A stretch of DNA of 63,764 nt, taken from the NCBI GenBank assembly GCA_949285145.1, contig CASDXQ010000011.1:1-63764 (forward strand). The letters run 5' to 3'. Below the pieces are notes generated by a model that searched no databases, was not told where the DNA came from, and saw only the letters and a program-made list of their open reading frames with translations. This document shows, in pieces, positions 11,596 through 25,229 of this stretch. The position numbers and the translations under genes were made by a program. Positions within the stretch are counted from its first letter, which is position 1. Each line of letters starts with the position of its first letter. The DNA comes from an uncultured Spirochaetales bacterium. Its GTDB lineage: Bacteria; Spirochaetota; Spirochaetia; Sphaerochaetales; Sphaerochaetaceae.

Positions 11596-12882
11596 ATGTC
11601 TTTACATGATTTGATGTACAAACCAAGGATTGCGGATGAACTTCTGGCCAGAGAGCTGGAAGGAATGGGGGCTGTGTTGATCAAAGGTCCCAAATGGTGT
11701 GGAAAGACAACAACAGCCGAGCAAATGGCTGAAAGCGTCATCTATATTGATGAACCTGAAAATGTCGATCAGAACATAAGGGCCTCAGAAATCAATCCGT
11801 CGCAACTGCTTGATGGAAAGACACCACGTCTCATTGATGAATGGCAGATCGCGCCGAAACTATGGGATGCAGTACGTTTCACCATAGATCGCAGAAAACT
11901 TGATGGACAGTTCATTCTCACAGGGTCTGCAGTGCCTTCTGATCCGAAACAGGAAAACCATTCAGGTACAGGACGGATTGCACAGATTACGATGCGGCCT
12001 ATGAGCCTGTGGGAATCAGGAGACTCCAGCGGTGCTGTCAGTCTGCATGAATTATTCAATGATAACCTCAGCATTTCAGGGATAAACAAGAGTGATATCA
12101 ATGATATTGCTTATTACATATGCAGGGGTGGATGGCCACGTGCAACACTGCAGAGCAGGAATGTATCACTCCGGAGAGCTTTTGACTACTATGATGCGAT
12201 AGTCAATGTTGATATTCACCGCGTCGATAACGTTGAAAGAAGCACGGAAAGAACAAAACTGCTTATGAGATCTTATGCGCGCATACAGGGAGCACAGGTT
12301 CCTCTGACAACAATCCGTGATGACATGAGGCCTAATGACAGCCCTTCTCTTGATGAACGTACTGTATATTCATATATAGAGGCACTGAAAAAGCTTTTTG
12401 TCATAGAAGATATGCCGGCATGGAATCCGAATCTTCGTTCAAAAACAGCAATCAGAACAAGCGATACAAGGTACTTTGTTGACCCATCAATCGCCACGGC
12501 CTCGCTGGGCATAGGACCTGAATCGCTGATCAGTGATCTGAATACAATGGGCCTGATGTTTGAAACAATGTGCATAAGGGATCTCCGGGTCTATGCGGAC
12601 TCACTGGATGGAACAGTTTCACATTATCGTGACAAATCAGGACTTGAATGTGATGCTGTGATACATCTCAGAGACGGTTCATATGGTCTTGTTGAAATCA
12701 AGCTTGGTGGAGAAAGTCTTGTACGAGAAGGTGTGAAAAACCTTCAGGCCCTAGCTTCAAAAATTGACACCGGAAAGATGAAAAAACCGTCTTTTCTTAT
12801 GGTTCTTACAGGAACGGGACGCTATGCAATACAAAGGGATGACGGTGTGCTTGAAGTTCCAGTCTGCTGCCTGAAAAACTGA
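11596..12882 (+). CDS. AAA_14 ATPase with DUF4143 domain
   Basis: A 428-residue P-loop protein of unknown cellular role. Residues 30-50 hold the Walker A motif (GPKWCGKTT), PRLIDEWQ is Walker B, and GQFILTGSAVP with RIAQITMRPMSLWESG are the usual AAA_14 sensor region. The C-terminal DUF4143 region carries a PD-(D/E)xK-like pair, ECDAVI followed by VEIKLGG, as in many members, suggesting a nuclease-like fold. Such genes are abundant, mobile and often single. This one sits behind a three-repeat array and faces its paralogue at 23889 across the nitrogen cluster. Confidence 0.85.
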   Translation: MSLHDLMYKPRIADELLARELEGMGAVLIKGPKWCGKTTTAEQMAESVIYIDEPENVDQNIRASEINPSQLLDGKTPRLIDEWQIAPKLWDAVRFTIDRRKLDGQFILTGSAVPSDPKQENHSGTGRIAQITMRPMSLWESGDSSGAVSLHELFNDNLSISGINKSDINDIAYYICRGGWPRATLQSRNVSLRRAFDYYDAIVNVDIHRVDNVERSTERTKLLMRSYARIQGAQVPLTTIRDDMRPNDSPSLDERTVYSYIEALKKLFVIEDMPAWNPNLRSKTAIRTSDTRYFVDPSIATASLGIGPESLISDLNTMGLMFETMCIRDLRVYADSLDGTVSHYRDKSGLECDAVIHLRDGSYGLVEIKLGGESLVREGVKNLQALASKIDTGKMKKPSFLMVLTGTGRYAIQRDDGVLEVPVCCLKN

Positions 12883-12968: not shown

Positions 12969-15044
12969 TCACACATAAAAAAGGATTTCAGAATATGTCG
13001 GCACAGGCCAGTAGGACTTGTCGACAATGCATTCAAGCCTGTCACAGATCCTGCGGGCATTCTCCATAGCCGGTATGATCTTGTCCGCGGCATAGAAAGC
13101 AGCCTTCTCTGTCTGCTGAGGTCCTTTTGCCACGCATTCATCAAGCTCATCAATTTTGACAAACAGCTCATCACACAGGGCACTTGCCTCAGCACAGAGG
13201 TTTTTGTCCGCATTCGCAGCCACTCCGATCCTGCCCTTCACCTGAACCGATGAAGCAAGAGAAGATGTGAAACGCAGAGCTGAGGGAAGTATCTGACGGC
13301 GGAGCATCTCACTCATTGTGACAGCCTCTATGTGAATCGCCTTCTGATACTCGTCAAGCGATATCTCAAGACGGGACTCCATCTCCTCTTTCGTATACAC
13401 ATTATGACGCTTGAACAGTGCAACGTTCTTCTCATCACAGTAATGAACAAGGGCATCCGGCGTTCTCTTATAGTTGGAAAGGCCTCTCTTCTCAGCCTCT
13501 TCCTCCCACTCTCTGCTGTATCCGTTGCCGTTGAAAAGGATTCTCCTGTGTGCTTTGAGTTCCCTTTTTATCAGAGCATTGAGGGATGCGTTGAAATCAG
13601 AAGCACCCTCAAGCTCATCACAGAAAGCCTTCAGGGCATCCGCCACTGCCGTATTGAGCATCACATTCGTACAGGCAATGTTGAAAGATGAGCCGGGCAT
13701 TCTGAATTCAAACTTGTTTCCGGTAAAGGCAAACGGACTTGTCCTGTTCCTGTCAGAGTTGTCGCGGGCAAGCTTGGGAAGCACGCTTGTGCCTATGTCG
13801 AGACGGGATGAAGAAGACCTGCCCTTGAACGGCGTTCCCTCGATGATTGATTCAATAACGGCATCAAGCTCATCACCGACAAATATCGACCCGATAGCAG
13901 GAGGTGCCTCGTTTGCGCCGAGCCTGTGATCATTTCCGGCACTTGCAACGCTTATGCGCAGCAGATCCTGGTAATCATCGACAGCCCTGATCACGGCAGT
14001 CAGGAAAAGCATGAACTGTGCATTGTCCTTAGGTGTCTTTCCGGGATCAAGAAGGTTCTCTCCTTCATCCGTGCTCAGAGCCCAGTTGTTGTGTTTTCCC
14101 GATCCGTTTATTCCTTCAAACGGCTTTTCATGAAGCAGACATGCAAAACCGTGCCTGTCTGCAACCTTCTTCATCATTTCCATCGTAAGCTGGTTCGCAT
14201 CGGTTGCCTTGTTTGCGTTATCGAAAATGGGAGCCATCTCATGCTGGCACGGTGCGACTTCATTGTGCTCGGTCTTCGCTGTTATGCCGAGCTTCCACAG
14301 CTCCTCGTCAAGATCAGCCATGAAAGCCTTCACCCTTCCCCTTATCGAGCCGAAGTAATGATCCTCCATTTCCTGCCCCTTGGCCGCAGGTGCACCTATT
14401 AGAGTGCGTCCGGTAAGCCTGAGATCCAGACGTCTGGAGAAATCCTTCTTGTCTATGAGGAAATATTCCTGCTCTGCACCTATGGTCGCATTGACTCTCT
14501 TCACCTTCTTGCCGAAAAGTGAAAGTGCCCTGACAGCTTCGCGGCTTATTGCATCCATGCTTCTCAGAAGCGGAGTCTTCTTGTCAAGGATCTGCCCCGT
14601 ATACGAACAGAATGCTGTAGGTATGCACAGTGTATCATCCTTGATGAATGCATAGCTTGTCGGATCCCATGCCGTATAACCGCGGGCTTCGAATGTTGCA
14701 CGCAGTCCGCCGGAAGGGAAACTTGATGCATCTGGTTCGCCCCTGGTCAGTTCCTTGCCGGAAAAATCCATGATGACACAGCCAGTTTTATCGACGGTGA
14801 GGAAACTGTCATGTTTTTCCGCGGTTATGCCGGTCATCGGCTGGAACCAGTGTGTGAAATGGGTCGCCCCCTTGCTGACCGCCCATTCTTTCATTGCTGC
14901 AGCTACAATATCCGCTGCATCCTCATCAAGGGCTTTTCCTTCAACCATTGTATCCTGTAATGATTGATATACCTTTTTCGGTAGCATTTCTCTCATTACA
15001 TGATCATTGAAAACCATGGAACCGAACATTTCAGATACGTTCAT
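12969..15044 (-). CDS. glnN: Glutamine synthetase type III
   Basis: ATP-dependent synthesis of glutamine from glutamate and ammonium by the large (GSIII) enzyme class. The length of 691 residues is usual for GSIII. Visible motifs: GSMVFNDHVMREMLPK at the start, GAEQEYFLID, the metal/ammonium region KTEHNEVAPCQHEMAPIF, GINGSGKHNNWALST and NRTSPFAFTGNKFEFRMPGS. The start follows AGGAGG. It is the last gene of the glnA-ANTAR-glnN operon (17-bp gap to the regulator gene), so it should share the attenuated leader at 16921-16959. Having both GSI and GSIII is typical of anaerobes that scavenge ammonium. Confidence 0.95.
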   Translation of the reverse strand: MNVSEMFGSMVFNDHVMREMLPKKVYQSLQDTMVEGKALDEDAADIVAAAMKEWAVSKGATHFTHWFQPMTGITAEKHDSFLTVDKTGCVIMDFSGKELTRGEPDASSFPSGGLRATFEARGYTAWDPTSYAFIKDDTLCIPTAFCSYTGQILDKKTPLLRSMDAISREAVRALSLFGKKVKRVNATIGAEQEYFLIDKKDFSRRLDLRLTGRTLIGAPAAKGQEMEDHYFGSIRGRVKAFMADLDEELWKLGITAKTEHNEVAPCQHEMAPIFDNANKATDANQLTMEMMKKVADRHGFACLLHEKPFEGINGSGKHNNWALSTDEGENLLDPGKTPKDNAQFMLFLTAVIRAVDDYQDLLRISVASAGNDHRLGANEAPPAIGSIFVGDELDAVIESIIEGTPFKGRSSSSRLDIGTSVLPKLARDNSDRNRTSPFAFTGNKFEFRMPGSSFNIACTNVMLNTAVADALKAFCDELEGASDFNASLNALIKRELKAHRRILFNGNGYSREWEEEAEKRGLSNYKRTPDALVHYCDEKNVALFKRHNVYTKEEMESRLEISLDEYQKAIHIEAVTMSEMLRRQILPSALRFTSSLASSVQVKGRIGVAANADKNLCAEASALCDELFVKIDELDECVAKGPQQTEKAAFYAADKIIPAMENARRICDRLECIVDKSYWPVPTYSEILFYV

Positions 15045-15061: not shown

Positions 15062-15607
15062 CTATGATAGTTCTCTTACAATTGTCATCGCCGCATCCAG
15101 CAGGCTTATGCGGCAGTTCATCGCTTTTTTCTCTATATAGGCATGAGCCTCCTCTTCACTCATAGCCTTGTATCTTGCAAGAAGGCATTTTGCCTTTGTA
15201 AGCATTTTCTCATTCTTCAGCCTTTCAAGAAGCTTTCTGTTCTTCTCTTCAGCCCTGCTTATCTTGTTTCTGGACACCCGCAGGGTTCTGAATACAGCAG
15301 CAAGCTCTCCTGTGCCCGCAACATACACACCGTACTTTTCCATTGTCTCCGCCATATGCTGCATAAGCGCATCAGGAACAATATATATCGTGTCGAATCC
15401 ACGTTCAGAAGCAAGAACTGATACTTCCTTTGCCGAGCCGTCCGGAAGAGATGCATCCACGATGACGAGTGAAAGAGACAGATCAAGTATCTTCATTCTC
15501 GCCTCTTTGCCGCTTTCCGCACGGAAGAGAGCATACCGCCCCGCAGCAAGCGTTTTCTTTATCATGTCGCATCTGCTTCTCTCAGCAGCGATAAGCACCA
15601 TTTCCAT
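15062..15607 (-). CDS. ANTAR-domain RNA-binding antiterminator
   Basis: A 181-residue two-domain regulator. Residues 1-115 are a receiver-like domain: the phospho-acceptor Asp51 is kept (LVIVDASLPDG), but the acidic pocket is reduced to AAER and the usual late Lys-Pro is missing, so signalling may not be by phosphorylation. A coiled-coil linker leads to the ANTAR three-helix domain (KCLLARYKAMSEEEAHAYI, then the MNCRISLLDAAMTIVREL helix). ANTAR proteins bind hexaloop RNA hairpins and prevent termination. It lies 8 bp after glnA; similar glnA-linked regulators exist in clostridia. Its probable targets are the three leaders described at 16921, 17095 and 23737. Confidence 0.9.
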   Translation of the reverse strand: MEMVLIAAERSRCDMIKKTLAAGRYALFRAESGKEARMKILDLSLSLVIVDASLPDGSAKEVSVLASERGFDTIYIVPDALMQHMAETMEKYGVYVAGTGELAAVFRTLRVSRNKISRAEEKNRKLLERLKNEKMLTKAKCLLARYKAMSEEEAHAYIEKKAMNCRISLLDAAMTIVRELS

Positions 15608-15615
15608 AGAAACAC

Positions 15616-16902
15616 CTATATAAAGCGTAAAAAGCGTCTGATCATTGAATCGTAATCACTCAGTTCCTGTCCGTATTCGTCTGCCTCCGCCTGTCTGTCT
15701 TCAAGGTAGCCCTCGACAATCCCGGGAGGAATGACGGAGCGGATGAAACTGCTTTTTCCCGCTGCGTCCACAGCAGCAGCAAGACTTGAAGGCAGCTTCA
15801 CTCCTGAAGAAAGTGAAATCATGTCGCCGGAAGCCTCGATCTGCGGTACTGCACCATCCGCAATACCCTCAAATCCTGCAGACAGCAGCAGGGAAATGAG
15901 AAGATACGGATTAGATGACGGATCAGGACTTCTCACCTCCATACGGCAGTCATTGCCTTCCGCATGCGGGATTCGCACAAGTGTCGACCTGTTCTGATGA
16001 CTCCATGAAACTGAAGAAGGAGCCTCAAAGTGACCGAACCTCTCATAAGAAGAAACCAGGGGATTTGCGAATGCTGTTATCTCATTCATTCTCCTCAGTA
16101 TGCCGGCCATGAATGACATTGCCTTGGGATCTTCCTTCTCAAAAAGATTCTCATTGTTCTCATAAAGGGAAAGATTTATATGCAGTCCGCTTCCGCTTTC
16201 ATTCCTGAGCGGTTTCGGCATGAATGAAGCGAAAAGACCATGCTGCTGTGCTATTGCTTTCACCGCAGTCTTGAATGTCATCATGTCATCGGCAGCTTTC
16301 AGCGGAGAAGAACAGCGGAAGTCTATCTCATTCTGCCCCGGTCCGTGCTCATGATGACTGCGCTCCGGCTTTATGCCCATATTTTCAAGAGCGAAGCAGA
16401 TTTCCCTTCTGACGTTCTCCCCTCTGTCAAGCGGTGCCATATCGAAATACCCCGCATCATCAAACGGACAGAGGGTCGGAAAACCTTTCTCATCAGTTTC
16501 AAAAAGATAGAACTCACACTCAGGTCCTACAAGGAAAGAGTATCCGGCAAGGCTGCTTTTCTTCTCTATGCGGGAGAGAAGATATCTTCCATCACCTTCA
16601 AATGGTCTTCTGTCAGGGTATGTGATATAACAGTAGAATCTGGCAACACCCCTGTCCGCAGGTCTCCACGGCAGGATGGAGAATGTGTCAAGATCAGGAA
16701 ACAGCAGAAGATCAGACTCGCTTATGTTCAGGAATCCCTTTATTGCGGATGCATCAAAGGAAACCCCGTGCTCAAGCGCGTGTTCCAGCTCATCTGCCAT
16801 TATCGCGATATTCTTCTGACGTCCGAAAATGTCACAGAAGGCAAGCCGTATGAATTTCACCTCATACTCTGCAAGCAGCTGCCTGATATCCTCCGTATCC
16901 AT
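15616..16902 (-). CDS. glnA: Glutamine synthetase type I
   Basis: A 428-residue GSI enzyme making glutamine from glutamate, ATP and ammonium. The short length and lack of the adenylylation-loop insert mark the GSI-alpha group. Motifs: VKFIRLAFCDIFGRQKNI, PECEFYLFE, HHEHGPGQNEIDF, GSGLHINLSL and NRSTLVRIPHAEGNDCRME. The ATG at 16902 is chosen because GGAGG lies 6 bp upstream; the first in-frame ATG (16914) overlaps that site. It is first in the operon with the ANTAR regulator and glnN, behind a short leader holding a hexaloop hairpin and an overlapping terminator. Confidence 0.96.
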   Translation of the reverse strand: MDTEDIRQLLAEYEVKFIRLAFCDIFGRQKNIAIMADELEHALEHGVSFDASAIKGFLNISESDLLLFPDLDTFSILPWRPADRGVARFYCYITYPDRRPFEGDGRYLLSRIEKKSSLAGYSFLVGPECEFYLFETDEKGFPTLCPFDDAGYFDMAPLDRGENVRREICFALENMGIKPERSHHEHGPGQNEIDFRCSSPLKAADDMMTFKTAVKAIAQQHGLFASFMPKPLRNESGSGLHINLSLYENNENLFEKEDPKAMSFMAGILRRMNEITAFANPLVSSYERFGHFEAPSSVSWSHQNRSTLVRIPHAEGNDCRMEVRSPDPSSNPYLLISLLLSAGFEGIADGAVPQIEASGDMISLSSGVKLPSSLAAAVDAAGKSSFIRSVIPPGIVEGYLEDRQAEADEYGQELSDYDSMIRRFLRFI

Positions 16903-16920
16903 AGTAACCTCCATTAACGG

Positions 16921-16952
16921 AAAAAGCGCCGCAGAAACATTTCTGCAGCGCC
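16921..16952 (-). terminator. Attenuator terminator in the glnA leader
   Basis: On the minus strand, GCGCTGCAGAA pairs with TTCTGCGGCGC (11 bp with one G-U) around an ATGT loop, followed by five T. It ends about 18 nt before the glnA ATG and just ahead of the ribosome site, so transcription must read through it to express glnA, the ANTAR gene and glnN. Confidence 0.85.
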
Positions 16953-16959
16953 TTTGCTG
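16946..16959 (-). promoter_or_regulatory. ANTAR-type hexaloop hairpin (antiterminator), glnA leader
   Basis: CAGC-AAAGGC-GCTG: a perfect 4-bp stem with a six-base loop that has A at position 1 and G at position 4, the recognition signature of ANTAR proteins. Its loop and 3' arm are the left arm of the terminator, so hairpin and terminator exclude each other. It begins 11 bp after the -10 element. Confidence 0.75.
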
Positions 16960-17094: not shown

Positions 17095-17108
17095 GAACAA
17101 GGACGTTC
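17095..17108 (+). promoter_or_regulatory. ANTAR-type hexaloop hairpin, glutamate synthase leader
   Basis: GAAC-AAGGAC-GTTC: a perfect 4-bp stem and hexaloop with A1 and G4. The loop AAGGAC and 3' arm form the left arm of the terminator at 17099-17140, so the two structures are mutually exclusive. The hexaloop is identical to that of the pyrG leader. Confidence 0.75.
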
Positions 17109-17140
17109 AAAGAGATGATTCTCTGAACGTCCTTTTTTTT
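17099..17140 (+). terminator. Attenuator terminator in the glutamate synthase leader
   Basis: AAGGACGTTC pairs with GAACGTCCTT, the stem continues through AGAG/CTCT with a mismatch, and a run of eight or more T follows. There is no upstream plus-strand gene for it to end, since glnA is divergent. It therefore acts on the leader of the gene at 17165. Confidence 0.85.
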
Positions 17141-17164
17141 ATTTTCCGGTTTCAGAGGCGGCTT

Positions 17165-18262
17165 ATGAAGAAAGAAGGCGAAGTCAGAATCAGTTCAGGA
17201 TGCGCGATAAGCGGAATATTCTGCCGTGACGGAAGACGTATCACGGGTGAAGCGATAAAAAAGAGCATAAAGGTCATGCACAACAGGTCAAACGGACTTG
17301 GCGGAGGCTTTGCAGGTTACGGGATATACCCGCAGTATAAAGATTACTATGCACTGCATGTTTTCTATGATTCACAGACCTCAAGAGAAGAGACGGAACG
17401 TTTTCTGGACAGACGGTTCGACATAATAAACCTCTCGAAAATACCTGTGCGCCAGACAAGTGCGATTGCGGATGCGCCTCTCATATGGCGCTATTTCGTA
17501 TCCCCGCTGCCTCACATGCTGCAGGACAGCCAGCTTGATGAGGACGAATACACATCACGGGCCATGATCAGGATAAACGATTCGATTGATGGCGCGTATG
17601 TCGTCTCTTGCGGCAAGGATATGGGCGTGTTCAAGGCTGTAGGCTATCCTGAGGATGTCGCTGATTTCTACCGCATCGAGGAATACGAGGGGTATTCATG
17701 GACGGCTCACGGACGCTACCCCACAAACACTCCGGGATGGTGGGCAGGATCTCACCCTTTCTCATTGCTGGATCTCACTGTCGTGCACAATGGCGAGATA
17801 TCTTCCTACGATGCCAACCGCAGGGCTGTCGAGATGTACGGTTACTCCTGCAATCTTCTGACAGATACAGAGGTCATAACCTATATTCTCGACTATCTTA
17901 CACGCAAACAGGGGCTCACGCTTGAAGAATGCTCACATGTCATAGCAGCTCCATTCTGGTCCACAATCGCGACGACAGAGGATGAAGATGAAAGAAACAG
18001 GCTTTCCTACATGAGACAGATGTTCTCTTCATTCCTCATCACCGGACCGTTCTCGATTCTTGTAGGTTTCACAGGAGGAATGATGGCTCTCAACGACAGG
18101 CTGAAACTCAGAAGCCTCGTCGCGGCGGAGAAAGGAAGCACTGTGTATTTCAGCTCGGAAGAAGCTGCAATCAGAGTCATTGAGGACAATCCTGACAGAA
18201 TATGGGCACCGCGCGGCGGAGAGGCTGTCCTAGTGACACTTGAAAAGGAGGCCGGAAGATGA
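17165..18262 (+). CDS. Glutamate synthase, glutamine amidotransferase (class II) subunit
   Basis: A 365-residue stand-alone GATase II domain of the three-gene glutamate synthase seen in archaea and clostridia. It releases ammonia from glutamine. SSGCAISGIF near residue 13 should supply the nucleophilic Cys, which would require removal of the 12-residue leader. GGGFAGYGIYPQYKDYYALH, WTAHGRYPTNTPGWW and HNGEISSYDANRR are the substrate-binding segments. It overlaps the next gene by 4 bp (ATGA). Expression should depend on read-through of the terminator at 17099-17140. Confidence 0.9.
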   Translation: MKKEGEVRISSGCAISGIFCRDGRRITGEAIKKSIKVMHNRSNGLGGGFAGYGIYPQYKDYYALHVFYDSQTSREETERFLDRRFDIINLSKIPVRQTSAIADAPLIWRYFVSPLPHMLQDSQLDEDEYTSRAMIRINDSIDGAYVVSCGKDMGVFKAVGYPEDVADFYRIEEYEGYSWTAHGRYPTNTPGWWAGSHPFSLLDLTVVHNGEISSYDANRRAVEMYGYSCNLLTDTEVITYILDYLTRKQGLTLEECSHVIAAPFWSTIATTEDEDERNRLSYMRQMFSSFLITGPFSILVGFTGGMMALNDRLKLRSLVAAEKGSTVYFSSEEAAIRVIEDNPDRIWAPRGGEAVLVTLEKEAGR

Positions 18263-19743
18263 GGAGATACAGAATTAGAAAGGATGACAGCTGCGTTTCC
18301 TGCCTCAGATGCGTATCGGAATGTTCATTCGGGGCAATAACAGCAGGTGAGAACAGAACACCTGTATTCCATCATGACAAATGCGTTGACTGCCAGCGCT
18401 GTGTGTCTTTCTGTCCTGCCGGAGCCATTTACATAACGGAAGACGGAAACAGATTCAGGGAAAACTCCGTTTTCAGGAAGGATGACATCAGTGAGATAAT
18501 CCTTCAGGCTGAAACGGGAGGAGTCCTGCTTTCATCCATGGGGGCAAGAGAGAAGAACATTCCCGTATACTTCGACAGGATGCTGCTGAACGCCAGCCAG
18601 GTGACAAACCCCTCCATTGATCCGCTCAGGGAACCTATGGAAAGTGCAGTGTTCATCGGACAGCGGCCTGAAAAGATCCAGAGGGATAAGGAAGGACGGC
18701 TTATAAATAACCTTCCGCCGCATCTTGAGCTGAAAACACCGATTCTGTTCGCGGCAATGAGCTATGGAGCGATCAGTCTGAATGTTCACAAAGCTCTGGC
18801 AGCAGCGGCAGAAGAACTCGGAACGTACTGGAATACAGGTGAAGGAGGACTTCATGAAAGTCTTTACCCGTACAAGGAGCACACTATCGTTCAGGTCGCA
18901 TCGGGACGTTTCGGTGTGCATGAGACATATCTGAACACGGCAGCCGCCATTGAAATAAAGATCGGCCAGGGAGCAAAGCCCGGAATCGGAGGTCATCTCA
19001 CAGGGCGCAAGATCATCGGCGATGTATCTAGAACAAGGATGGTGCCGGAAGGTCTTGATGCCATAAGTCCGGCTCCGCATCACGATATCTATTCCATCGA
19101 GGATCTGGCGCAGCTCGTCATGTCAATAAAGGAAGCCACGCATTACAGGAAACCTGTGATGGTCAAAGTCGCAGCCGTTCACAACATCGCTCCGATCGCC
19201 TCGGGAATTGCAAGAAGCGGAGCCGACATAATCTCCATAGACGGTTACAGGGGCGGAACGGGAGCTGCTCCCAAACGCATAAGGGACAATGTGGGAATTC
19301 CCATCGAGCTTGCAATCGCAGCTGTGGACCAGAGACTGAGGGAGGAAAAGATAAGGGACCGCGTGAGCATCATCGCCTCAGGCGGCATAAGGAATTCAGC
19401 CGATACCGTCAAGGCCATAGCACTTGGTGCCGATGCTGTCTCAATCGGAACTGCAGCCCTTTGCGCACTTGGCTGCCATATATGCGCATCATGCCACACC
19501 GGCAGGTGTGCATGGGGAATCGCGGCACAGGATCCTGAACTAACAAAACGACTTGATCCGGAAAAAGGCGCAAAACGGCTTGTCAATCTCGTGAATGCAT
19601 GGACACGCGAAATAAAGGAGATCATGGGAGGAATGGGGATAAACAGCATCGAGGCACTGAGGGGCAACAGGATGGCACTGCGCGGTGTGGCACTCAATGA
19701 GAAAGAACTTGAGATTCTCGGAATCAGATATGCAGGAGAATGA
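18259..19743 (+). CDS. Glutamate synthase, FMN catalytic subunit with ferredoxin domain
   Basis: A 494-residue synthase subunit. Residues 8-60 contain two [4Fe-4S] clusters of the bacterial ferredoxin type (CVSCLRCVSEC and CVDCQRCVSFC). The rest is the FMN TIM-barrel domain: AAMSYGAISLNVHKALA, GEGGLHESLYPYK, GQGAKPGIGGHL, ISIDGYRGGTGAAPKRI, and a CALGCHICASCHTGRC cluster for the 3Fe-4S centre. It condenses ammonia with 2-oxoglutarate to glutamate, probably taking electrons from ferredoxin. No NADPH small subunit is encoded in this operon. Confidence 0.92.
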   Translation: MRRYRIRKDDSCVSCLRCVSECSFGAITAGENRTPVFHHDKCVDCQRCVSFCPAGAIYITEDGNRFRENSVFRKDDISEIILQAETGGVLLSSMGAREKNIPVYFDRMLLNASQVTNPSIDPLREPMESAVFIGQRPEKIQRDKEGRLINNLPPHLELKTPILFAAMSYGAISLNVHKALAAAAEELGTYWNTGEGGLHESLYPYKEHTIVQVASGRFGVHETYLNTAAAIEIKIGQGAKPGIGGHLTGRKIIGDVSRTRMVPEGLDAISPAPHHDIYSIEDLAQLVMSIKEATHYRKPVMVKVAAVHNIAPIASGIARSGADIISIDGYRGGTGAAPKRIRDNVGIPIELAIAAVDQRLREEKIRDRVSIIASGGIRNSADTVKAIALGADAVSIGTAALCALGCHICASCHTGRCAWGIAAQDPELTKRLDPEKGAKRLVNLVNAWTREIKEIMGGMGINSIEALRGNRMALRGVALNEKELEILGIRYAGE

Positions 19744-19744
19744 C

Positions 19745-20458
19745 ATGAAGGTGGTTGACATAAGAAAAGACGGAATCGATGGAATAAGAAAGCATGAGAA
19801 CAAGGAGATAACTGTGACAGGATGTCTCGGTGAACGTTATATCGGCTGCGGCATGAAGGACGGGGTCATGCATATAGAAGGGACACCGGGCAATGCGATT
19901 GCATCCTATCTTGACGGCGGCAGCATTTATGTGGATGGCAATGTCCAGGATGCTGCGGCAGATACAATGAATGCGGGTCTTCTTGCCGTGAACGGCAGCG
20001 CCGGCGATGCGCTTGCATACGGCATGAGAGGCGGCCGTGTCTATATCAGGGGCGATGCCGGCTACAGGGCCGGTGTGCACATGAAGGCATATGAGGACAG
20101 AAAAAGCATCCTGGTCATAGGAGGAAGGACAGGATCCTTTCTGGGTGAATACCTTGCCGGAGGAATCATCATAGTCCTCAACCTTGATGAGGAAAAAGAC
20201 ATAACAGGTTATTTCTGCGGAAACGGAATGTATGCCGGAACCATATATCTGAGGACACAGCGTCCTCCGGTGAATCTTTCCGACAAGCTGATTACAAGAA
20301 AAGTCGGAAAAGAGGAAATGGAGAGTGTCATCCGCCCGCTGGTAACTGACTTCGCATCTGTTTTCTCGCTCAGTGCGGCTAAGTGTCTTGAAGGCGGGTT
20401 CATGGCAGTCGAAGCGGATAAATCAAAATCATACAGCCAGCTTTATGCTGCAGTCTGA
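19745..20458 (+). CDS. Glutamate synthase, GXGXG (alpha-subunit C-terminal) subunit
   Basis: A 237-residue protein consisting of the right-handed beta-helix (GXGXG) domain: repeated turns such as DGGSIYVDGNVQDAAADTMN, GSAGDALAYGMRGGRVYIRG and GGIIIVLNLD. In the one-chain enzyme this domain lies at the C-terminus and is structural; here it is separate. The ATG at 19745 is 1 bp after the previous stop and has AGGAG upstream; the longer in-frame reading from 19685 overlaps the FMN subunit and is discarded. Confidence 0.9.
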   Translation: MKVVDIRKDGIDGIRKHENKEITVTGCLGERYIGCGMKDGVMHIEGTPGNAIASYLDGGSIYVDGNVQDAAADTMNAGLLAVNGSAGDALAYGMRGGRVYIRGDAGYRAGVHMKAYEDRKSILVIGGRTGSFLGEYLAGGIIIVLNLDEEKDITGYFCGNGMYAGTIYLRTQRPPVNLSDKLITRKVGKEEMESVIRPLVTDFASVFSLSAAKCLEGGFMAVEADKSKSYSQLYAAV

Positions 20459-20468
20459 GGAGTGGAAT

Positions 20469-22055
20469 ATGTGTACAGTTTTTGCTTACAGGGGAAGAGC
20501 CCTGACTCCTGCCCAGCTCAAAGACATTCTTGAAAGGACAAGAAGAAGAGGTCCGGATGCAGAGAGGATCATAATGCCGGAGGAGAATCTTTTCCTTGCC
20601 TTCCAGAGACTTTCCATAATGGGCATAGATGGAAGAGGCATGCAGCCTTTTGAATACAATGGAATGTACGCCATCACCAACGGGGAGATCTACGGATGGC
20701 GTGACATGCGCAGGAAACTTGAGGCGGAAGGATATGCTTTCCACTCTGATTCCGACTGTGAGACGGTGCTCTACATGTTTGACAGATACCGCGAGAAAAT
20801 GTTCGCCATGCTTGATGCGGAGTATGCATCCGTAATATATGATCCGGCTGAAGGCTTCATAGCCGCAAGGGATCCTGTCGGAATCCGTCCGCTTTTCTAC
20901 GGCTATGACAGGGACGGGAATATCGCATTCGCAAGCGAAGCCTGCCTGCTCACCACTCTGTGCTCTGCAGTAAGACCTTTTCCTCCCGGACATTACTACA
21001 AGAACGGTTCCTTCATCTGCTACCGCGATATCTCCGCAGTGAAATCGTATACATACGGCAGCATTGACGAAATAACACGAAATATAAGGGAGAAGCTGAT
21101 AAAAGCCGTGGAGAAGCGCCTTGATTCCGATACACCGGTTGCCTTCCTGCTTTCAGGCGGTCTGGACAGTTCCCTTGTATGTGCAATCGCATCCAGACTG
21201 CTTGGAAAGAAAATCCGTACATTCTCAATAGGAATGGACAAGGATCCGATAGACTCGAAATATGCACAGCGCACAGCTGAATATCTTGGCAGTGAACACA
21301 TAAACGTCACGATGACAAGGGATGACGTGATCACCATCCTTCCTGAAGTCATAAACACGCTTGCCACCTATGACATAACAACCATCCGGGCAAGTATCGG
21401 GATGTACCTCCTGTGCCGGTATATCCATGAGCACACTGATGTGAAGGTACTCCTCACCGGAGAAGTGTCTGACGAGCTTTTCGGCTACAAATACACCGAT
21501 TACGCACCTGATGCAGAAGCTTTTGAGAAAGAAAGCCGGAAACGTGTGCATGAGCTGTATGCATATGATGTGCTCAGGGCAGACAGGTGCATTGCCGACA
21601 ACAGTCTTGAAGCCCGCGTGCCGTTCGGCGATCTTGATTTTGTCTCATACGTGCTGTCAGTCGATCCCGAGATGAAGATGAACCATTACGGGCATGGCAA
21701 GTACCTTCTGAGAAAGGCATTCGAAAAAGGAGGCTGGCTTCCTGATGACATCCTCTGGAGGCAGAAAGCAGCCTTCAGCGATGCAGTGGGACACAGTATG
21801 GTGGACGATCTCAAGGAATACGCAGACCAGATATACAAAGGCAAGGACCTTGAAAAGGAGTATGAGAAATACCCTGAGAAAGGACGTCCTTTCACGCCGG
21901 AGTCTCTGCTTTACAGGGAAATATTCGAAAGTTTCTATCCCGGCCAGCATGAAATGATACCCGGCTTCTGGATGCCCAACACCAGCTGGCCCGGCTGTGA
22001 TGTAAAAGATCCTTCCGCCCGTGTCCTCTCAAACTACGGACAGAGCGGATGCTGA
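20469..22055 (+). CDS. asnB: Asparagine synthase (glutamine-hydrolysing)
   Basis: Converts aspartate to asparagine with glutamine and ATP. The 528-residue protein starts MCTVFAYRGR with the class II amidotransferase Cys2, then shows RRRGPDAERI, NGEIYGWRDMR, and the synthetase P-loop FLLSGGLDSSLVCAIASRLL. EVSDELFGYKYTDYAP is the ATP/aspartate site. The start at 20469 is fixed by Cys2 and a GAGGAG site. It is the last gene of the glutamate synthase operon, 10 bp after the GXGXG gene, and so should be under the same attenuator. Confidence 0.94.
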   Translation: MCTVFAYRGRALTPAQLKDILERTRRRGPDAERIIMPEENLFLAFQRLSIMGIDGRGMQPFEYNGMYAITNGEIYGWRDMRRKLEAEGYAFHSDSDCETVLYMFDRYREKMFAMLDAEYASVIYDPAEGFIAARDPVGIRPLFYGYDRDGNIAFASEACLLTTLCSAVRPFPPGHYYKNGSFICYRDISAVKSYTYGSIDEITRNIREKLIKAVEKRLDSDTPVAFLLSGGLDSSLVCAIASRLLGKKIRTFSIGMDKDPIDSKYAQRTAEYLGSEHINVTMTRDDVITILPEVINTLATYDITTIRASIGMYLLCRYIHEHTDVKVLLTGEVSDELFGYKYTDYAPDAEAFEKESRKRVHELYAYDVLRADRCIADNSLEARVPFGDLDFVSYVLSVDPEMKMNHYGHGKYLLRKAFEKGGWLPDDILWRQKAAFSDAVGHSMVDDLKEYADQIYKGKDLEKEYEKYPEKGRPFTPESLLYREIFESFYPGQHEMIPGFWMPNTSWPGCDVKDPSARVLSNYGQSGC

Positions 22056-22127: not shown

Positions 22128-23723
22128 TCAGATACAGGCTTTCATGAATGCATCAAAGAGAGGATGAACCCTGTTCGGCCGGCTCTTGAACTCCGGGTGT
22201 GACTGCACTGCGACAAAAAAGCGGCAGGCAGGATTTTCCATCGCTTCAACAAGCTTGCCATCAGGACTTGTGCCGCTGAATGTGATCCCGCTTTCTGCAA
22301 TCCTGTCCCGGAATACAGGAGACACCTCATAACGATGTCTGTGACGTTCCTGTACAAGATCCTGTCCGTATATTTCATATAGCAGCGTCCCCTTCTTCAC
22401 CGCACACGGATATGAACCGAGCCGCATGGTGCCGCCTTTCGCGCTTATGTTGCGCTGTTCATCCATAAGATCGATCACGCACTCATTTCCATCAGGATCA
22501 AATTCCCTTGAATTGGCATGGCTCACTCCGGCAAGAGAGCGTGCCGCCTCAATCACCGCAACCTGCATGCCGAGACATATGCCGAAATAAGGGATGTTGT
22601 TCTCACGGGCATAGCGTGCGCACAGGATCATGCCTTCAATGCCCCTTGAACCGAATCCACCGGGAACAAGTATGCCGTCGGCATCCTTGAGAAAATGTTC
22701 TGCCCCTGACTTCTCCACTTCCTCAGTATCGATGAATGAAAGCTCAAGAGCTGCATCATTCCAGCTTGCGGCATGGTAAAGAGCCTCATTTATTGAAAGA
22801 TAAGCATCTCTCAGCTTCACATATTTACCGCATACCGCGATTCTCACAGTACGCTTCTTCGGCTGTGTCATACGCCCTACGGCTGCTCTCCATTCAGCAA
22901 GATCACAATCTGAGCATTCAAGTGAAAGCCTGGAGACCACATAATCGTCAAACCCGCGTTCATGCAGCAGTAAAGGAAGTGCGTATATCGGAGAAACATT
23001 CTCATTGGCAATGACTGCACGCCTTTCAACATTGCAGAACATTGCAAGCTTTGAGAGGACATCATCATCAAGACTCTTGTCCGAACGTGCGATAATGCAG
23101 TCAGGCATTATTCCCATACCCTGAAGCTCCCGCACGGAATGCTGGCCGGGCTTGGTCTTGTACTCTCCGCTGCACTCAAGGTACGGAACAAGAACGACAT
23201 GGATGAACATGCAGTTGGCGCTTCCCTTTTCAATGCGCAGCTGTCTTGCCGCCTCCAGGAACGGCTGGCTTTCGATATCGCCGATGGTGCCTCCGATCTC
23301 AGTGATCACGACATCGGCACCCGTAAGCTCGCCAAGAGAATATATTGCCGATTTTATCTCATCGGTCACGTGAGGGATTATCTGGACGGTGCGGCCGAGA
23401 TATTCCCCTCTTCTCTCCCTTGTCAGTATGTTCCAGAATACCTTTCCGCTTGTCAGGTTAGACTTTCTGTTCAGATTCTCATCGATGAACCGCTCGTAAT
23501 GACCGAGATCAAGATCGGTTTCAGCTCCATCCTCCGTCACGAACACTTCACCGTGCTGATACGGGCTCATAGTGCCGGGATCCACATTCAGATAAGGATC
23601 CAGCTTCTGCGCCGCCACTTTCAATCCTCTCTGTTTCAGCAATAAGCCGAGACTTGCCGCGCTCACGCCTTTGCCCAGTCCTGATACAACTCCTCCCGTG
23701 ACGAAAATGTACTTACGGTCCAT
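22128..23723 (-). CDS. pyrG: CTP synthase
   Basis: Makes CTP from UTP using glutamine and ATP. The 531-residue protein has the synthetase domain first (KYIFVTGGVVSGLGKGVSAA, DPYLNVDPGTMSPYQHGEVF, EIGGTIGDIESQPFLEA) and the class I amidotransferase domain second (GGFGSRGIEGM, the nucleophile elbow YFGICLGMQ, and SHPEFKSRP). The ATG at 23723 follows GGAGG; the in-frame extension to 23756 reads through the leader terminator and is not coding. The leader holds an ANTAR-like hexaloop and terminator identical in design to those of the glnA and glutamate synthase operons. Confidence 0.96.
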   Translation of the reverse strand: MDRKYIFVTGGVVSGLGKGVSAASLGLLLKQRGLKVAAQKLDPYLNVDPGTMSPYQHGEVFVTEDGAETDLDLGHYERFIDENLNRKSNLTSGKVFWNILTRERRGEYLGRTVQIIPHVTDEIKSAIYSLGELTGADVVITEIGGTIGDIESQPFLEAARQLRIEKGSANCMFIHVVLVPYLECSGEYKTKPGQHSVRELQGMGIMPDCIIARSDKSLDDDVLSKLAMFCNVERRAVIANENVSPIYALPLLLHERGFDDYVVSRLSLECSDCDLAEWRAAVGRMTQPKKRTVRIAVCGKYVKLRDAYLSINEALYHAASWNDAALELSFIDTEEVEKSGAEHFLKDADGILVPGGFGSRGIEGMILCARYARENNIPYFGICLGMQVAVIEAARSLAGVSHANSREFDPDGNECVIDLMDEQRNISAKGGTMRLGSYPCAVKKGTLLYEIYGQDLVQERHRHRYEVSPVFRDRIAESGITFSGTSPDGKLVEAMENPACRFFVAVQSHPEFKSRPNRVHPLFDAFMKACI

Positions 23724-23736
23724 ATATGCCTCCAAT

Positions 23737-23770
23737 AAAAAAGACGCCCATCCCACATGAGATAGACGTC
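23737..23770 (-). terminator. Attenuator terminator in the pyrG leader
   Basis: On the minus strand GACGTCTATCTC pairs with GGGATGGGCGTC (12 bp, three G-U) around ATGT, followed by six T. It sits directly before the GGAGG site of pyrG. Its left arm overlaps the hexaloop hairpin at 23764-23777. Confidence 0.85.
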
Positions 23771-23777
23771 CTTGTCT
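23764..23777 (-). promoter_or_regulatory. ANTAR-type hexaloop hairpin, pyrG leader
   Basis: AGAC-AAGGAC-GTCT: a perfect 4-bp stem, hexaloop with A1 and G4, the same loop sequence as in the glutamate synthase leader. It overlaps the terminator's left arm and starts 11 bp after the -10. Confidence 0.75.
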
Positions 23778-23788
23778 TATTCATCCGG

Positions 23789-23818
23789 ATTATAGCACTC
23801 TTCACAGATTTTTCTCAA
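23789..23818 (-). promoter_or_regulatory. pyrG promoter
   Basis: TTGAGA (23818-23813), an 18-bp spacer and TGC-TATAAT with a perfect extended -10 (TATAAT at 23794-23789). Predicted start about 5 nt before the hexaloop hairpin. Confidence 0.75.
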
Positions 23819-23888: not shown

Positions 23889-25151
23889 TCATACACCCAG
23901 CGCTGTAACAGGTATTACATTGACACCATCTTCCCTGCAGTATCCGTATGAAGCTAGACCGCATACGACAGCAAGGAAAGAAGCCCCCTTGCCTGACGCT
24001 TCCCTCATGGCCTTGTCAGCTTTGAGAAGCGTTTTCGCCGCATAGTCGATTTCCCCTGCTCCGAGTTTTATTTCCACAGCTCCCCATGAACCGTCAGGAG
24101 CCTCAACCACAGCGTCGATTTCATTATTCTTGTAGTCCTGATAATGCATAAGACGACATCCTGATGCAACAGCATAGACTGCAAGATCTCTTTCAACAAG
24201 CGATTCAAAAAGAAAACCGAATGTCTGAAGATCTTTGATAAGATGATCCTGTCTCATACCAAGAAGTGCAGCAGCTATGGAAGGATCCGTGAAATGACGC
24301 TTTTCCATCTGCTTCAGCCTCAGTGATGATCTTACAGCAGGACTGAATGGCTGCTGTGGAGACAGAAGAAACAGCCTTGACAGAATCTGCAGATATGAGT
24401 TCACCGTCTCATCAGTTATCTCGCCATTCATATCCCTCATGAGAACTTTCTTTGAAGCGGTTGTGCTTTCGTTTCTTGCAAGGGAACGCATGAAACGATG
24501 CATTTTCAACAGGTCTATTGATTGTGCGACTCTCGGAATATCTTCCTGAATAAGACCTGCCACATAATCAGCTGAAAATGAATAAGCATGTTCATATGGA
24601 AGATCAACAGCAGAAGGCCAGCCTCCCCTGACTATGTAATAGGCAAGTTTCTCGATTCCTGGATTTTCAGCCTGCACAACCTCGCTGATATTGCCTTTGA
24701 ACAGCGATGCCAAAGATATTTTTCCAGACGATTCTCCTGACTCATAAAGCGACATCGGTCTCATGGTCAAAAGCGAAATACGACCGGTGCCTGAATGCAT
24801 TATTCCTTTTTGTACCGGTGTGGATGATCCTGTCAGTATGAACTGACCTTTTTCAGGAACCTTATCCACTTCAGAACGGACAACATCCCATAAAGCAGGG
24901 ATTTCCTGCCATTCATCAATCAGATGAGGCCTCTCACCTTTCAGTGCAAAAGAATTATCCATCATGGTGATTCTGCGGTTTGCAAAGTTGTCTGTTGCAT
25001 CACCCAGTTTTATCTCGCTGGCCGCCTGATGTTCCGCGGCCCATGTTTTTCCACAGGCTTTAGGTCCCTGAATACATACAGCCTTTGAGAGCTCAAGTTT
25101 AAGTTTTATCTCGCTGTCGACAATCCGCGGTTTGTAGAACTCGTTATCCAT
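23889..25151 (-). CDS. AAA_14 ATPase with DUF4143 domain (second copy)
   Basis: A 420-residue paralogue of the ATPase at 11596. Walker A is GPKACGKTW, Walker B PHLIDEWQE, followed by GQFILTGSSTP and RISLLTMRPMSLYESGE. DUF4143 follows, with the PD-(D/E)xK-like pair EIDAVV and VEIKLGAG. The ATG at 25151 is preferred over an in-frame TTG at 25178 because the latter lies inside the third upstream repeat. The function of the family is unknown. It is convergent in orientation with the first copy and upstream of no obvious partner, so it is probably a single-gene unit with its own regulation. Confidence 0.85.
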   Translation of the reverse strand: MDNEFYKPRIVDSEIKLKLELSKAVCIQGPKACGKTWAAEHQAASEIKLGDATDNFANRRITMMDNSFALKGERPHLIDEWQEIPALWDVVRSEVDKVPEKGQFILTGSSTPVQKGIMHSGTGRISLLTMRPMSLYESGESSGKISLASLFKGNISEVVQAENPGIEKLAYYIVRGGWPSAVDLPYEHAYSFSADYVAGLIQEDIPRVAQSIDLLKMHRFMRSLARNESTTASKKVLMRDMNGEITDETVNSYLQILSRLFLLSPQQPFSPAVRSSLRLKQMEKRHFTDPSIAAALLGMRQDHLIKDLQTFGFLFESLVERDLAVYAVASGCRLMHYQDYKNNEIDAVVEAPDGSWGAVEIKLGAGEIDYAAKTLLKADKAMREASGKGASFLAVVCGLASYGYCREDGVNVIPVTALGV

Positions 25152-25177
25152 ACAGTTTATTTTCCAGCTGATAATCA

Positions 25178-25229
25178 AAATTTGTCAAGGTGGCTTTTAC
25201 AAATTTATACAACTCACTTTGATAAATTT
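25178..25229 (-). repeat. Three AAATTT-centred repeats at 23-bp spacing before the ATPase
   Basis: AAATTT at 25178, 25201 and 25224, exactly 23 bp apart, upstream of the ATPase start at 25151. On the coding strand the copy nearest the gene reads GCCACCTTGACAAAT, 13 of 15 bases identical to GCCAACTTGACTAAT in the array before the first ATPase (11540-11554). The units are less uniform than in the first array. Confidence 0.6.

Follow-up and report, generated by a model that had tools for sequence, protein, structure and literature searches.

The window analysed here, 63,764 nt of contig CASDXQ010000011.1 (assembly GCA_949285145.1) from an uncultured Spirochaetales bacterium of the Sphaerochaetaceae, contains a nitrogen gene cluster flanked by two AAA_14/DUF4143 ATPase genes (11596-12882, plus strand; 23889-25178, minus strand). 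A minus-strand operon encodes type I glutamine synthetase (glnA, 15616..16914), directly followed by an ANTAR protein whose receiver domain is degenerate (15062..15607) and, as third gene, type III glutamine synthetase (glnN, 12969..15044); its leader (16915..16959, minus strand) forms a CAGC-AAAGGC-GCTG hairpin and an overlapping terminator. On the plus strand, the leader of gltA (17095..17142), in which a GAAC-AAGGAC-GTTC hairpin (17095-17108) overlaps a terminator (17099-17134) with a T tract, precedes the glutamate synthase genes (17165-20458) and asnB (20373-22055). The gene of CTP synthase, pyrG (22128..23723, minus strand, 531 aa), begins at a conserved ATG (23723-23721); an alternative GTG at 23756 in the list of open reading frames falls inside the leader.

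The pyrG leader reads, on the minus strand, TTGAGA-18 nt-TATAAT-ccggatgaata-AGAC-AAGGAC-GTCT-atctcatgtgggatgggcgtcTTTTTTattggaggcatatATG. It comprises a predicted sigma-70 promoter (23789..23818, with TTGAGA at 23818-23813, an 18-nt spacer and TATAAT at 23794-23789; 11/12 matches, extended TG), an ANTAR-type hexaloop hairpin that is the putative antiterminator (23764..23777, a 4-bp stem and an AAGGAC loop identical to that of the gltA leader, conserved and covarying) and an intrinsic terminator (23740..23773, 15 pairs counting G-U, a 4-nt loop, T6 at 23742-23737) that begins with the hexaloop and 3' arm of the hairpin. The hairpin lies 11 nt beyond the -10 box and approximately 55 nt upstream of the start codon. 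By the rule of thumb that places the transcription start about 7 nt past the -10 box, the RNA is predicted to begin approximately 4 nt upstream of the stem (near 23782), a start that has not been mapped. The whole leader folds as the terminator (-22.8 kcal/mol, z -4.4), and the mini-hairpin by itself reaches only -3.3 kcal/mol, so that a protein would be required to keep it folded. A sequence-only reading had reported the AGAC-AAGGAC-GTCT hairpin, the loop shared with the glutamate synthase leader, the lack of GGGC at the predicted start and an overlapping 12-bp terminator with six T; all of these hold except the terminator length. A short leader peptide (ATGGACAAGGAC..., in a few leaders) was considered and rejected on inspection, its frame not being conserved.

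A scan of the window for stems of at least 4 bp with an A1/G4 hexaloop and an overlapping terminator returned four matches (the gltA, pyrG and glnA leaders and one weak antisense match inside glnN), against 0.13 expected from first-order Markov, dinucleotide-preserving simulated windows. With a covariance model (R1) built from 17 leaders, these three among them, a search of the whole 2.06-Mb genome recovered only the gltA, pyrG and glnA leaders and the opposite strand of the gltA terminator, which is palindromic; all three leaders precede genes of glutamine metabolism. Rfam models at gathering thresholds matched nothing but tRNAs over the window, and to our knowledge Rfam has no ANTAR-leader family.

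Conservation and genomic context of the element

With the pyrG protein as query, a search across species genomes yielded 30 named contigs of spirochaetes (uncultured Spirochaetales and Spirochaetaceae, Candidatus Ornithospirochaeta, Candidatus Avitreponema), 29 of them with a complete pyrG leader. The hairpin is present in 29/29: 25 were found by the scanner (A1/G4), one has the loop GAAGGC (L127), and three were recognized by eye because their terminators escaped the scanner (L116, L125, L135). Loop position 1 is A in 28/29 and position 4 is G in 29/29, and the element is absent from 6/6 pyrG loci outside the spirochaetes found by the same search. The stem varies among relatives (AGAC/GTCT, GGAC/GTCC, GAAC/GTTC), with a covariation score of 0.353 versus 0.209 in shuffles for 27 distinct pyrG leaders and 0.721 versus 0.289 for 37 leaders of all targets, no shuffle scoring as high in 500 trials in either case; in the 37 leaders, the stem pairs are 100% formed and 37 cells are changed on both sides. 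The shuffle control ignores relatedness; slid controls, which retain it, score much lower. This covariation supports the mini-hairpin itself, because its 5' arm lies mostly outside the terminator. Four further pyrG leaders (L258, L260, L261 and L262, of G365, G267, G263 and G200) have a strong terminator and no hexaloop despite an ANTAR gene in the genome, which in three of these genomes adjoins pyrG convergently.

The second hexaloop hairpin of known ANTAR targets (P1, 5-12 nt upstream in eut leaders), the absence of which the sequence-only reading overlooked, is missing from the pyrG leader of the window, where the predicted start leaves no room for it. No A1/G4 hexaloop hairpin occurs within 50 nt upstream of the usual one in any of the 29 pyrG leaders (1.4 expected by chance). 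All 29 have a predicted -10 box whose end lies 7-12 nt upstream of the stem and, another 16-19 nt upstream, a box resembling TTGAGA or TTGACA; the median distance from -10 box to stem in the other target groups is likewise 7-12 nt. Four gltA leaders of genus g18 (L169, L207, L196, L201) have, in addition to the usual hairpin, another A1/G4 hexaloop hairpin 27-42 nt farther upstream, and it is possible that one- and two-hairpin leaders coexist within the same family.

Among 120 relatives, an ANTAR domain was found in 37 and the element in 37, with 33 possessing both, four only the one, four only the other and 79 neither (Fisher p 1e-20). Of the four with the element alone, two are incomplete genomes (G010, G070) and two have weak matches (G076, G119). 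A broader set of 296 genomes from the phylum, partly overlapping the first, contained 24 with the element, and ANTAR was found in 23 of these. The 37 ANTAR genomes among the relatives include 14 in which pyrG has its own element, 17 in which pyrG lies directly behind the ANTAR gene, and six with neither arrangement.

In many genera of the window's family, the element heads a cluster in the order gltA-gltB-(gap)-gltC-glnA-ANTAR-pyrG (for example G061, G032, G019, G034, G006, G058, G017, G037 and G064), and the order in G036 is ANTAR-pyrG. A genome of another family (G082) has ANTAR-element-pyrG, and a second large family, f24 (possibly Treponema-like, the family names here being inferences), has element-pyrG-glnA-ANTAR (G195, G364, G376, G348). 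Members of g16 and of the window's genus mostly have pyrG apart from the ANTAR gene, with its own element. The hexaloop-terminator element also precedes glnN, asnB of two kinds, a gene for an ammonium transporter that is fused to a PII domain (L181:726-2462, minus strand), and genes for the ATPase of an amino-acid-type ABC transporter, for a class IV aminotransferase (branched-chain type) and for a permuted ATP-grasp enzyme. Since the targets are mostly nitrogen genes and the linkage of pyrG to ANTAR recurs, the element apparently marks a nitrogen regulon of which pyrG is a regular member. Several genomes possess two or three pyrG paralogues (G300, G309, G340, G358, G359, G364, G375, G376, G385); in G364 and G376 a single paralogue is within the element-pyrG-glnA-ANTAR operon.

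The ANTAR protein and its possible sensor

The proposed trans-acting antiterminator (PF03861 match at 15077-15235; 43 bits, cut-off 27.3) is the product of the one ANTAR gene that the Pfam model detects in the genome. Aligned to EutV (PMC8934654), it has counterparts of the RNA-contact residues Met172, Asn173, Arg175, Lys143 and Lys147 (MNxR, K..K), and none of Arg168 and Tyr164. It does not meet the criterion of a response regulator activated by phosphorylation (acidic pair, phosphorylated aspartate, lysine): the aspartate is kept in the window, and gone in many relatives, and the acidic pair and lysine are lacking. Because these residues are missing, often together with the aspartate, the domain is evidently a pseudo-receiver like that of AmiR.

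The gene usually found immediately upstream of the ANTAR gene is glnA, and Bacillus glutamine synthetase is known to bind the regulator TnrA. By analogy with this pair and with AmiC/AmiR, GlnA could conceivably be the sensor of the ANTAR protein. There is no sign that this GlnA is a dead enzyme, since the usual glutamine synthetase motifs are kept. An obligatory sensor role was rejected, as G036 and G082 have no close homologue of type I glnA yet possess ANTAR with pyrG, and for this reason the idea remains only a suggestion.

Antitermination model and alternatives

Sequence alone shows the anatomy of the leader, its conservation and covariation, its occurrence alongside ANTAR genes and the linkage of the genes. 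The interpretation, held with high confidence, is that the pyrG leader is an ANTAR-type transcription attenuator with a single hexaloop, in one regulon with gltA and glnA-ANTAR-glnN; protein binding, read-through, the nitrogen signal and the direction of the response are inferred. By default, the nascent RNA would fold into the terminator and transcription would halt ahead of pyrG. The ANTAR protein, when active, would bind A1, G4 and C6 of the hexaloop in the small hairpin at the 5' end, and the bound hairpin would keep the AAGGACGTCT segment out of the terminator, allowing polymerase to read through into pyrG. The same protein would act on the gltA and glnA-ANTAR-glnN leaders, and because one ANTAR protein would thus serve all three, the glutamine-using CTP synthase would be co-regulated with the synthesis of glutamine and glutamate. 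Judging from the partner genes, pyrG would be expressed more under nitrogen shortage, like the glutamine synthetases.

This regulon membership had been claimed in the sequence-only reading and is supported by the conservation, the co-occurrence and the pyrG-ANTAR linkage in two families. Conservation of the hexaloop upstream of pyrG in relatives, set beforehand as a test, was passed, and so was the position of the predicted start upstream of the hairpin, both on sequence only. The coupling of CTP synthesis to nitrogen status, also claimed, rests on the regulon partners only. Against the mechanism stand the six of 37 ANTAR genomes in which pyrG has neither an element nor linkage to ANTAR, and the need of known systems for two hexaloops.

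The closest known system is EutV/EutW, acting on the eut leaders of Enterococcus faecalis (PMC3369931, PMC8934654), which shares the short stem, the A1/G4 hexaloop overlapping an intrinsic terminator, and an ANTAR protein with a receiver domain and conserved RNA-contact residues. Unlike the spirochaete leader, which has one hexaloop at its 5' end, eut leaders need both of their two hexaloops, which are spaced 5-12 nt apart, and EutV is phosphorylated by a kinase, whereas the spirochaete receiver lacks the usual phosphorylation residues. eutP was no longer induced once P1 had been deleted (PMC3369931), and antitermination in vitro was lost when the linker was extended by 20 nt (PMC8934654). The structure of EutV, in contrast, shows an ANTAR dimer bound to one hexaloop, and its authors (Walshe et al., PMC8934654) ask why two are required and what single hexaloops can do, and urge further work on single-hexaloop sites. 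AmiC/AmiR and NasR (PMC3369936) resemble the spirochaete system in their nitrogen-related targets, in A1 and G4 of the loop and, for AmiR, in a non-phosphorylated pseudo-receiver, but their leaders have two hairpins and their sensors are an amide-binding protein or a NIT domain, where the spirochaete neighbour is a glutamine synthetase gene. The ANTAR regulons of Desulfotomaculum and Pelobacter likewise have several leaders per genome, before genes of glutamate synthase, glutamine synthetase and ammonium transport; they were found with a two-hairpin model by Ramesh et al. (PMC3369931), who list such leaders ahead of genes for glutamate and glutamine synthesis in a variety of bacteria, in a text that names neither pyrG or other pyrimidine genes nor spirochaetes. 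Because the two-hairpin criterion is unmet, the pyrG element is classed as a variant that acts like an ANTAR leader, not as a standard member. That it is a natural single-hexaloop form of ANTAR antitermination is likely, though inferred from sequence with a predicted start and no data on binding or read-through.

Three alternatives are each considered very unlikely. The element could be an ordinary terminator or the target of another protein, the ANTAR link being a coincidence of gene clustering. In its favour, direct binding data are lacking, and the co-occurrence partly reflects joint inheritance, since ANTAR and its targets are often neighbours. However, the conserved A1 and G4 are the loop bases that NasR and EutV need (PMC3369931), the element also lies upstream of targets away from the cluster (asnB, the Amt-PII fusion), and it is nearly always absent where the ANTAR gene is absent. 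A second alternative is that ANTAR control relies on two hexaloops, as it does in eut, nas and ami, and that P1 is transcribed from a start farther upstream than predicted. The four g18 gltA leaders with a second hexaloop indicate that two-hairpin forms may exist in the group, but none of the 29 pyrG leaders has an upstream hexaloop and all have the predicted -10 box 7-12 nt from the hairpin. The last, CTP-sensitive attenuation as in Bacillus subtilis, where G residues added at a GGGC start by reiterative transcription pair with the 5' arm of the terminator and block termination at low CTP, without a protein antiterminator or hexaloop, is recommended by a leader terminator very near the pyrG start, as in B. 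subtilis, and has been proposed for streptococci too (PMC4448216, also citing the B. subtilis case), but only 1/29 pyrG leaders has GGG around its predicted start (the leader analysed here lacking GGGC at that position, as noted), start sequences are unconserved whereas the hairpin loop is conserved, and G addition leaves unexplained the element shared by gltA, glnA and asnB, the loop conservation and the co-occurrence with ANTAR genes.

Implications for nitrogen and nucleotide metabolism in spirochaetes

Single-hexaloop ANTAR attenuation of pyrG remains the preferred reading. A bolder version, which the balance of evidence favours only slightly, is a spirochaete-wide ANTAR regulon in which one hexaloop at the first nucleotides of the transcript suffices without a recruitment hairpin and which brings CTP synthase under nitrogen control. 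In this version, the adjacent glutamine synthetase might act as sensor, retaining the pseudo-receiver ANTAR protein or setting it free. No paper joining ANTAR with CTP synthase was found in the open-access literature searched, although a report may exist that was not seen. With a regulon conserved across two spirochaete families, and one hexaloop predicted to suffice there during transcription, the single-hexaloop question can be tested directly. CTP synthase, an essential nucleotide enzyme, would be added to the functions predicted to be under ANTAR control, and in a large group of gut spirochaetes its gene apparently shares a switch with the genes for glutamine synthesis and use.
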